Virus record (IMG/VR): IMGVR_UViG_3300046028_005287
Span: 1-42,653 of that record
Length of the DNA: 42,653 nt
Strand: one strand, 5' to 3'
DNA from: a virus
Within the stretch, counting starts at the first letter, position 1. Each line of letters starts with the position of its first letter. Position numbers and translations under genes: made by a program. Below are positions 24,890-27,917 of this stretch, piece by piece. Under the pieces are notes generated by a model, which saw only the letters and a program-made list of their open reading frames with translations, was not told the origin of the DNA and made no database searches.

Positions 24890-25477
24890 TACATCATCTA
24901 CTTTATTACCTAGGTCTGCTAACGTTCCGTTGTTTTCAATTAGATAATCATGCCAACAACCAATCCAATCTGTTTCTGAGGTATGAATGTCCACATTAGG
25001 ATATGAATACATTGTTGGGTGCTGATTGTAATTAACGAAGTCATTAAACCAAACTGGGTCCTCACCACGTTTAACACGGATAATGATACCGCCATTATCT
25101 TGTATATGCTTTACTTCATTCTTGAACCGAACATCAGTAACTACTATATCACGACCCTTTGCACGATTCAATAGTGAAACTACCCATATATCAGGATGAA
25201 AAACATTTCTACCTGCTTCGGTTCCCATTAACTGTAATGCTAGTCTTGGTGAAAATGGTTCACTGAATCTCTCAGACCAAAACGCATCAGGTTCTTCACG
25301 CCATTTTCTTGATAGTTCTGTATCACCCTCAAGTAATTCACGAGGCCATCCAAAGATAACTGAACATGCATCTTTTAATGGTGCAGCAAAACTATCTTTA
25401 TGAAAACCCTTATCAACAAATAATTCACCGACAGTGCCTTTTCCACTGCCGATAAATCCTATTAGACCAACAATCAT
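24872..25477 (-). CDS. Deoxynucleoside monophosphate kinase, T4 gp1-like
   Basis: A 201-residue kinase with P-loop GFIGSGKGT (7-15), DSFAAPLKDACSVIFGWPRE, LQLMGTEAGRNVFHPDIWV and VVTDVRFKNEV, the pattern of phage dNMP kinases such as T4 gp1. It phosphorylates dNMPs to supply phage DNA synthesis; T4 gp1 also accepts hydroxymethyl-dCMP. It overlaps the upstream glycosyltransferase gene by four bases. Whether it accepts a modified base matters because a TAGT-type glycosyltransferase is encoded nearby. Confidence 0.88.
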   Translation of the reverse strand: MIVGLIGFIGSGKGTVGELFVDKGFHKDSFAAPLKDACSVIFGWPRELLEGDTELSRKWREEPDAFWSERFSEPFSPRLALQLMGTEAGRNVFHPDIWVVSLLNRAKGRDIVVTDVRFKNEVKHIQDNGGIIIRVKRGEDPVWFNDFVNYNQHPTMYSYPNVDIHTSETDWIGCWHDYLIENNGTLADLGNKVDDVLKCIK

Positions 25478-26289
25478 AGTGAACCGGTCAATTCAGCAAT
25501 CTTAGGTAGATTACCTGTAAAGGGATATGTGCCAATATGTTGTGTTTTCATCCAAGGACACAGATAGATTTTACCTTGAATTTTACGCCATAGTTGACAG
25601 AACATGTAATCTTCTGAAAGATATCTATCAGAACCACCACCTGTTGCACTATCAATCGTATCAATGATGGTATCAAAGTATGCATGGATATAGCGAGAAC
25701 CATCAAAGTTTTTCTGCCCGACATGGTCAGGTTTATATCTCAATTGCGGATAAGCCTTTTCCATCTTCACAAATACTTCCCGCTTAATCAACATGAAGCC
25801 AGTACCAATTTCTAATACTTCAAGAGGTTCAGTAACAGAAAATTGCTGTGTGCCTTTTACCACATTGAATACATAATCACCTACCAGATTCTCAAGTTCA
25901 TTAGCAGGTAAATTGGGATTAGTTCTTGCTGCCTTTGCGATATTATTCCAGTTGATAGACTTTTTGGGATAGGGTGCACCAATAACATCTTTATCTAAAG
26001 CAAGGAGTGCAATAACATCTTGTGGGTTATAATGAATGTCCGAGTCAATGAATAATAGGTGTGTGCTATCAGAACGGAGAAATTCATCAGTAAGATAATT
26101 ACGTGCGCGAGTAATTAGTGATTCATTGAACAGAAATGAGAACTTTGTTTCCACGCCATAATTCGCCATAAGCATTTGCAAGTCAAGACATGATTTCATA
26201 TACATGCCGTGTGACATGCCACCATACATAGGTGTTGCAATGAAGATTTTGTTTTTCTTTAATTCATCAATTTTAACTTTTATTTCCAT
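25474..26289 (-). CDS. GT-A glycosyltransferase-like protein
   Basis: A 271-residue protein. IFIATPMYGGMSHGMYMKSC opens the domain, and LLFIDSDIHYNPQDV (about 77-91) carries a DSD-type metal site. VIGAPYPKK, EVLEIGTGFMLIKREVF and LSEDYMFCQLW (about 225-235) complete a GT-A layout seen in many T4-like phages. The first ATG has no strong ribosome site. It lies among replication genes rather than in the glycan cassette, so DNA or virion glycosylation are both possible. Confidence 0.75.
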   Translation of the reverse strand: MEIKVKIDELKKNKIFIATPMYGGMSHGMYMKSCLDLQMLMANYGVETKFSFLFNESLITRARNYLTDEFLRSDSTHLLFIDSDIHYNPQDVIALLALDKDVIGAPYPKKSINWNNIAKAARTNPNLPANELENLVGDYVFNVVKGTQQFSVTEPLEVLEIGTGFMLIKREVFVKMEKAYPQLRYKPDHVGQKNFDGSRYIHAYFDTIIDTIDSATGGGSDRYLSEDYMFCQLWRKIQGKIYLCPWMKTQHIGTYPFTGNLPKIAELTGSL

Positions 26290-26354: not shown

Positions 26355-26612
26355 TTAGGCAAATGCTTTTGAACCAAGAGCCTGATATGCAGCAGCAACC
26401 ATAGCACGATTAGGTTTACCAAGACGATATGCTGTGGTCTCACCATTGCGTGTTTTCAAAACATTAGTGTAAATGCTGTAACCTTCTGCACGAAGTTTAG
26501 AAATAACAGCGGAAAGATTGCTGATACCGAATTGATGTCCGGCTTGACGTTCTGTGATATCGCGTCCAGATTGGAAAAATTTAACTAGACGTTCTTTTTG
26601 TGATTTAGTCAT
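26355..26612 (-). CDS. Small winged-helix DNA-binding protein
   Basis: An 85-residue basic protein. DITERQAGHQFGISNLSAVISKLRAEGY (about 19-46) is a clear helix-turn-helix with a recognition helix, and YTNVLKTRNGETTAYRLG forms the wing. It stands alone between a near-consensus promoter with a structured leader (26613-26711) and a strong terminator, so it is an independent early transcript. ATGAGGTTATT precedes the ATG. A regulatory role, perhaps of its own leader or of phage promoters, is inference. Confidence 0.8.
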   Translation of the reverse strand: MTKSQKERLVKFFQSGRDITERQAGHQFGISNLSAVISKLRAEGYSIYTNVLKTRNGETTAYRLGKPNRAMVAAAYQALGSKAFA

Positions 26613-26630
26613 AATAACCTCATTTAATTT

Positions 26631-26675
26631 GTATCGCTCAATTCAATTGCTCGGAAGGCGATACTTTCTGCCGAG
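26631..26675 (-). promoter_or_regulatory. Possible mRNA pseudoknot in winged-helix gene leader
   Basis: In the roughly 64-base leader, minus strand, CTCGG (26675-26671) pairs with CCGAG (26654-26650), and AAG can add to CTT inside. The loop TATCGC (26663-26658) is fully complementary to the downstream GCGATA, within GCGATAC at 26637-26631. This allows an H-type pseudoknot or two alternative hairpins, ending about 9 bases before the GAGG ribosome site. No covariation evidence is available. Confidence 0.55.
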
Positions 26676-26682
26676 TGTTTAT

Positions 26683-26711
26683 ATAATACTATAAAAATAA
26701 GTGCATGTCAA
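26683..26711 (-). promoter_or_regulatory. Early promoter for winged-helix gene
   Basis: Minus strand: TTGACA (26711-26706), 17-base spacer, TATTAT (26688-26683). Its -35 box overlaps the 3' arm of the terminator of the AAA+ gene upstream. Confidence 0.8.
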
Positions 26712-26753: not shown

Positions 26754-27917
26754 TTAGAACGGAATCTCACCCGCAACAGGGCGACCAGCAGCGTCAGGCT
26801 GTGCGGCATCAACACCAGAATCAATCTTAGTGTAGAGGTCAAGGAAAGAAACTTTCGTATCTTCATTAAAGCGGTTCAAACACAGTTGAATTGCTTTTTT
26901 CTTATCACCAAACACACCATACGTTTTAACGATGTGAACCAAACGGCGGGTAGAAATAACCTCGTCAGCAGCATCTTCCTCAAACGTTTTGCGAATAACA
27001 TCTGCCCATGACACAAGTTTTTCAGCAAACTCACTATCACCTTTACCAACAGATTCAAGTTCTTTGGTAATGATTTTCTTTTCGATAGCAACAGGAGGCC
27101 AAGTTTGTTCCATCGTATTCAGAAAACGTTCAAGGAACGCTTCATTCAGAATGTTGGTGAACATATAGCGACCATCTTCGCTGCCCTTACCTTTGGTGTT
27201 AGCAGTTGCGACAATCGTAAAACCTTCGGTAGGATAAACAATTTCATTCTTTTTCTTCAACAGAAAAGGCTTACCCTCAAGCACCCGTTGCAGAGTAGAA
27301 AGATTTTGTGAACCATAGTCGATTTCGTCAATACACAGAACTGCACCCAGCCGCGCCGCAACAGTCACAGGACCATCACGCCACACCATTTCGCCATTGA
27401 TAAGCACGAAGTTACCCAGAAGGTCACCTTCATCGGTATCAGGTGTCATTGATACACAGATAAATTTGCGTTTGGCTTTTGCACATGCCTGTTCAACAGA
27501 CATTGTTTTACCATTACCAGAGTGACCAGTAATCAGAATCGGATAGAATACTTTAGATTCTATGATAGCAAGAACATCATCAAAATTACCAAAGGGCACA
27601 TAGTTCTTATATACTTTTGGAACGATATCATTAATTTCGATATCAGTTTCAACACTTGAAATATGTTTTTTAGCCATAGGAATAATTTGTGCTGCCATCG
27701 CCACACTTTCAATGGGTGCAGATTTTACAACAGCACCACGAACAAAATACTTGCCACGACCAGCACGATTCTCAGGGTCTTTGGTGAACCACTGAGGAAA
27801 CTTAATTTTCAGGTTCTTACAAATGACATTAATATCTTCGACAGTCAGGGTATCTTTACCAAATTGTTTGACTGCTTCCAGAAACTTAGAACGAACTTCA
27901 AGATTCGGCTTACGCAT
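26754..27917 (-). CDS. MoxR/CobS-like AAA+ ATPase
   Basis: A 387-residue protein. An N-terminal region (1-100) with a possible DNA- or partner-binding fold precedes an AAA+ domain with Walker A GHSGNGKT (131-138), Walker B VLCIDEID (about 193-200), sensor ATANTKGKG and an arginine finger (LERF). It is the kind of protein often labelled CobS in phages. It pairs with the VWA/metalloprotease-like gene just upstream, the classical MoxR-VWA arrangement, in which the ATPase remodels a target chosen by the VWA protein. It has its own perfect promoter (27954-27982). A true cobaltochelatase role is unlikely because no cobalamin genes are near. Confidence 0.85.
   Translation of the reverse strand: MRKPNLEVRSKFLEAVKQFGKDTLTVEDINVICKNLKIKFPQWFTKDPENRAGRGKYFVRGAVVKSAPIESVAMAAQIIPMAKKHISSVETDIEINDIVPKVYKNYVPFGNFDDVLAIIESKVFYPILITGHSGNGKTMSVEQACAKAKRKFICVSMTPDTDEGDLLGNFVLINGEMVWRDGPVTVAARLGAVLCIDEIDYGSQNLSTLQRVLEGKPFLLKKKNEIVYPTEGFTIVATANTKGKGSEDGRYMFTNILNEAFLERFLNTMEQTWPPVAIEKKIITKELESVGKGDSEFAEKLVSWADVIRKTFEEDAADEVISTRRLVHIVKTYGVFGDKKKAIQLCLNRFNEDTKVSFLDLYTKIDSGVDAAQPDAAGRPVAGEIPF

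Follow-up and report, generated by a model that had tools for sequence, protein, structure and literature searches.

The short leader of a stand-alone winged-helix gene in a virus record raises the question of whether it folds into an RNA pseudoknot and, if so, whether that fold controls translation. The window analysed here is a 42,653-base virus record that encodes a T4-like DNA polymerase, sliding clamp and major head protein, and the stretch in question lies on its minus strand, to which all features below belong. The presumed regulated gene (26355–26612, 85 codons) encodes a winged-helix product of the HTH_39 family (PF14090, phrog_4973), and is flanked upstream by a CobS-like AAA gene (26754–27917) and on the other side by a phrog_1574 gene (25474–26289). 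A sigma70-like promoter, TTGACA-17-TATTAT (26711–26683), matches the consensus at 11 of 12 positions and places the predicted transcript start at about 26676, and a terminator-like hairpin with a 12-pair stem and a T run (26337–26306) directly follows the HTH_39 stop codon. These two signals bear out the single-gene transcript proposed in an earlier sequence-only reading. Leaders of the window group have promoters that score 10–12 of 12 and are positioned as in the window. The −35 box of the HTH_39 promoter is overlapped by an inverted repeat with arms of 9 bp (AAGTGCATG/CATGCACTT) and a trailing T-rich run (26736–26699), which probably serve as terminator for the AAA gene upstream; similar repeats occupy the same place at loci L005–L013 (AAGACCC...GGGTCTT) and L038–L070 (TGACACAG...CTGTGTCA). 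The AAA gene is itself preceded by a perfect 12/12 sigma70 consensus promoter, TTGACA-17-TATAAT (27982–27954).

Between the promoter and the ribosome site of the HTH_39 gene, the leader can form an H-type pseudoknot (26675–26631) in the order CTCGG-CAGAAA-GTATCGC-CTT-CCGAG-CAATTGAATTGA-GCGATAC, followed by 9 nt, GAGG and ATG. Stem S1 (5 bp) pairs CTCGG (26675–26671) with CCGAG (26654–26650), and stem S2 (7 bp) pairs GTATCGC (26664–26658), which lies within the S1 loop, with GCGATAC (26637–26631), the strands being assigned from the sequence and from covariation in relatives. Loops L1, L2 and L3 comprise 6, 3 and 12 nt, respectively, with CAATTGAATTGA forming L3 (26649–26638); two extra S1 pairs (G-C and A-U) are possible inside a C·U mismatch, which would reduce L1 to 3 nt and L2 to 0. 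The Shine–Dalgarno (SD) sequence GAGG (26621–26618) lies 9 nt past the pseudoknot, and the ATG start codon (26612–26610) is 18 nt from its end. The complementarity between the hairpin loop and the downstream segment, originally described as 6 bp, is thus real and one pair longer. In dinucleotide shuffles of the 65-nt window leader alone, an equally good H-type pseudoknot arose in 3 of 4,000, and across 1.95 Mb of strand a loose pseudoknot scan of all fetched DNA returned 2,556 scores that were fairly good, or about one per 0.8 kb. Because the generic scan is so noisy, a single sequence is weak evidence, and conservation decides.

Three scans of viral contigs, run with the window protein and two alignments, gathered a first set of some 170 homologous loci. 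In this set, 37 distinct leaders carry an H-type pseudoknot adjoining the ribosome site that no more than 2 of 60 shuffles equalled. A second set, from a further scan with a query of a different subfamily, shares a few loci with the first, and 42 of its 54 distinct leaders have a pseudoknot beating all 60 shuffles. We aligned 19 of the 37 first-set pseudoknot leaders (alignment A6, MAFFT) and 27 of the second-set pseudoknot leaders (alignment A10), guided in both cases by sequence and not by structure; the misregistered alignments A3 (first), A4 and A5 (core) were left out of the covariation counts. In A6, 94.7% of the cells are paired, with the window-type S1 lying one column out of register so that its S1 pairs are partly counted as broken, and double changes occur at 7 of 12 pairs (28 doubly changed cells). 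The corresponding values in A10 are 93.8% and 11 of 16 pairs (63 doubly changed cells). The covariation scores were 0.42 for A6 and 0.45 for A10, compared with 0.22 ± 0.02 and 0.21 ± 0.02 after shuffling (0 of 500 shuffles in each case); as the shuffles ignore relatedness, these counts represent support and not probabilities. In a slide control on A6, shifted registers dropped to 21–58% paired. Both S1 and S2 contribute to the covariation in A6, and RNAalifold recovers S2 independently. When the window is aligned with only its three nearest relatives, every pair is kept and S2 does not vary, indicating that the S2 covariation derives from more distant leaders. In A10, the signal comes mostly from S1, with double changes at all 10 of its pairs, and S2 is nearly invariant, covarying at one pair only (A-U, G-U and G-C). 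Covariation in homologous leaders, which had been named as a way to check the fold, is therefore found in two sets, for S1 in both and for S2 mainly in the window's group. The abundance of double changes, together with the slide control, makes it very secure, as a conclusion from comparing sequences, that the predicted pseudoknot is conserved through compensatory change. The H-type pseudoknot that the sequence-only reading had placed in this leader, close to the ribosome site, thus holds both on the sequence and on its conservation in homologues.

The L352–L400 leaders in A10 have an invariant unpaired GA before S2 and an invariant GG after it. These bases hint that sequence may be read besides shape, as at a recognised site; they could form non-canonical pairs or act as contact points. 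Further afield, a distant blastn search of the locus against named phages gave no match, a tblastn search found seven weak homologues, with no convincing pseudoknot in the three leaders inspected (L175–L177), and a genome-contig search gave no confirmed relative.

In most first-set relatives, S1 has at least 5 bp and S2 has 5–8 bp, the two stems abut (L2 = 0), L1 spans 1–4 nt and the S1 loop spans 9–12 nt; the window has the widest geometry of the set (L1 6, L2 3). The absent L2 and the nearly fixed S1 loop fit simultaneous coaxial helices, and a variable L3 (3–16 nt) together with short L1 and L2 is what an RNA H-type fold permits. The pseudoknot ends 5–13 nt before the SD sequence (s.d. 1.8) and 17–25 nt before the start codon in 34 leaders. 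The distance from promoter to pseudoknot is 7–12 nt in the window group versus 30–53 nt in the L020–L032 clade; the longer distances for L071, L083, L085 and L094 are unreliable, as they probably reflect promoter-like matches inside upstream genes. Many second-set copies lie 5–8 nt past the stop codon of the upstream gene, where no clear promoter is seen, and the ATG is still 17–25 nt away. Since the distance to the ATG and SD sequence is constant and that to the promoter is variable, the element is tied to the ribosome site rather than to the 5′ end, which favours a role in translation initiation over that of a pure 5′ stabiliser. The predicted structure and placement of the pseudoknot are well supported.

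Within the material searched, the pseudoknot precedes genes of the HTH_39 family only. One pseudoknot pattern has 27 matches across the collection, all of them before HTH_39 genes, and the same holds for every match to a second pattern that truly has S1. A third pattern, searched at the DNA level, was dropped because its matches were mostly GC-rich chance sites. A covariance model gave two significant sites, one each in the window and a 160-kb phage and each preceding an HTH_39 gene; the model is not fully sensitive, as it missed a divergent copy in a second phage. In a stricter leader-wide scan, which allowed an L2 of 0–1 only and hence missed the window's own element, the top candidates included the 160-kb phage's HTH_39 leader along with terminator hairpins and ORFs that were likely miscalled. 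The 12 records searched contain one HTH_39 match apiece. The pseudoknot persists while the upstream neighbour varies, including CobS-like AAA, HNH-like, small and RpoZ-like proteins as judged by eye. At L420, L428 and L080, the gene just upstream of HTH_39 resembles, again by eye, the omega (RpoZ) subunit of RNA polymerase.

On a tree of 74 HTH_39 proteins, few columns of which support its branching, the pseudoknot label requires five changes. The pseudoknot occurs throughout the window's clade (23 rows) and also in a second, distinct clade embedded among homologues with a 5′-proximal hairpin only; its history may be one of ancestral presence followed by loss, or of several independent gains. 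At L033–L036 and L101–L174, which have their own promoter, the pseudoknot is replaced by a short hairpin near the predicted transcript start, such as CTTGC-AAAAC-GCAAG, and variants including CTTGT/ACAAG preserve the pairing by compensatory change. The leaders L020, L023 and L025–L032 apparently have both a 5′-end hairpin and an SD-adjoining pseudoknot, which suggests that the two are separable modules. Several operon-internal HTH_39 copies, such as L014–L019, have no pseudoknot in their leaders. The large hairpin-only clade and these pseudoknot-free operon-internal leaders indicate that the HTH_39 family does not always depend on the pseudoknot.

The winged-helix assignment of the product, made initially from the sequence alone, is upheld by a match to HTH_39 (PF14090) at 36.4 bits (cut-off 21.3, E = 4.7 × 10−9). 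An AlphaFold2 model built from a 74-row alignment (mean pLDDT 84, pTM 0.65) adopts a winged helix with three helices, a two-stranded wing and a C-terminal helix. Its PDB matches are DNA-binding folds of the MarR, PadR and BirA types, with ribosomal entries lower in the Foldseek list, and their Z scores of about 8 indicate a shared common fold and nothing beyond. Among solved structures, the protein has no clear sequence relative, and its fold is of the DNA-binding type, with no RNA-binding signature found. The modelled fold would be compatible with either DNA or RNA as the target, and does not decide between them. A search of the literature outside subscription papers returned nothing on point for HTH_39, PF14090 or such leaders.

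We infer that the pseudoknot controls translation and, going a step further, that its ligand would be the encoded protein and its effect repression. In the proposed mechanism, the pseudoknot, whose end is some 9 nt upstream of the SD sequence, would fall under the footprint of a 30S subunit. Once folded, it would be recognised by a trans-acting factor, for which the gene's own product, a basic winged-helix protein, is the likeliest candidate once it has accumulated, and the bound factor would block or trap the initiating ribosome, thereby limiting synthesis of the HTH_39 protein. The single-gene transcript and the gene-specific element near the ribosome site are consistent, by analogy, with autogenous control like that of T4 gene 32. 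Our judgement is evenly balanced on whether the pseudoknot is a cis-acting translational operator with, most likely, the gene's own product as its ligand. The same leader could instead serve a constitutive, ligand-free function, preventing upstream sequence from pairing with the ribosome site and protecting the mRNA. The freedom of the sequence to vary between groups while the geometry persists would suit such an insulating element, as would the window-group fold, which begins 7–12 nt past the −10 box and thus near the 5′ end, and the 5′-proximal hairpins that the sister clade carries instead. However, the pseudoknot lies away from the 5′ end in the L020–L032 clade and in the intercistronic copies, it accompanies one gene only in the genomes scanned, a restriction that a generic element need not have, and the invariant unpaired bases of one subfamily also count against this explanation, which we consider unlikely while still according it real weight.

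Those invariant positions would suit a riboswitch, or an operator that answers to a different factor of phage or host, such as a phage single-strand-binding protein or a metabolite. Short H-type pseudoknots do serve as riboswitch aptamers. However, a comparison of the window and 12 relatives with Rfam 15, riboswitches included, gave only sub-threshold matches and none above the gathering threshold. The regulated gene encodes a regulator of unknown function and has neighbours that vary from locus to locus, and the sequence differs greatly between subfamilies. Most small-molecule aptamers are not so variable, and we regard this reading as improbable. The DNA-binding-type fold of the product, together with a site directly downstream of the promoter in the window, might alternatively mean that S1 and S2 are inverted repeats, interleaved in the DNA, whose arms serve the winged-helix protein as operator half-sites. 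A gap between the S2 arms that ranges from 8 to 24 bases, combined with short L1 and L2, is wrong for a rigid DNA site, in one subfamily the element sits between two cistrons and no promoter is clearly seen, and the other two GTATCGC sites of the window fall inside coding ORFs; a DNA operator is therefore very improbable. The suggestion in the sequence-only reading that the two pairings could be alternatives in a switch is not supported. In such an attenuator, S1 and S2 would be mutually exclusive and one state would hide the SD sequence; the 5′ strand of S1 in the window is indeed able to pair with the SD sequence, and the S1′ strand ACCTC complements the GAGGT SD sequences of the L023–L032 group. 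However, SD accessibility shows no consistent or conserved difference between the nested and the pseudoknot-locked states across 23 leaders, and abutting helices with L2 = 0 suit simultaneous formation, leaving a switch hardly credible.

Extending the autogenous reading to the whole family, we propose tentatively, and leaning slightly against it, a new and widespread class of phage RNA operator in which a winged-helix protein represses its own translation through an H-type pseudoknot. If this is true, a DNA-binding-type fold reads an RNA pseudoknot. The conserved leader element gives phrog_4973, a family of unknown function, a testable role. Whether a winged helix can read such a structure is the question that the locus raises, and the natural alignment of leaders is ready-made for testing it.

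Known systems differ from the HTH_39 leader in informative ways. T7 Gp5.7 represses transcription from host RNA-polymerase promoters, and the abstract that describes it mentions no leader pseudoknot. The rpsO gene, which encodes ribosomal protein S15, is under autogenous translational control through an autoregulatory pseudoknot operator (PMC3014915). It resembles the HTH_39 system in using a pseudoknot operator and differs in being a host ribosomal gene. In rpsO, the SD region is part of the knot; in the HTH_39 leader, the SD sequence lies outside it. The gene 32 operator of T4, T2 and RB69 mediates autogenous repression by gp32, with structure counting more than sequence (PMC535899), and the T2 pseudoknot consists of two coaxial helices (PMC3014915). 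The likeness to T4 gene 32 drawn in the sequence-only reading stands in so far as both are H-type pseudoknots in phage leaders, upstream of the ribosome site of a gene for a nucleic-acid-binding protein; the coaxial helices of T2 likewise find a parallel in the L2 = 0 geometry of most HTH_39 relatives. Membership of the gene 32 system does not follow. The gene 32 leader has a less structured stretch of more than 40 nt with UUAAA repeats, covered by gp32, between the pseudoknot and the start codon (PMC535899). By contrast, the corresponding distance in HTH_39 leaders is 18 nt in the window and 17–25 nt in relatives, with no long A/U-rich tract, and the product is a winged helix rather than a gp32-type single-strand-binding protein; on these two grounds, the HTH_39 leader is not a member of the gene 32 system. 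Moreover, the phages with the HTH_39 pseudoknot are known here from metagenomic contigs alone. A 2010 review remarked that viruses may offer no example of such control other than gene 32 (PMC3014915), and this sets the value of a direct test: a covarying leader pseudoknot that lacks an Rfam match is found here on a different, common phage gene family, and autogenous control, if true, would make it a second phage example besides gene 32.
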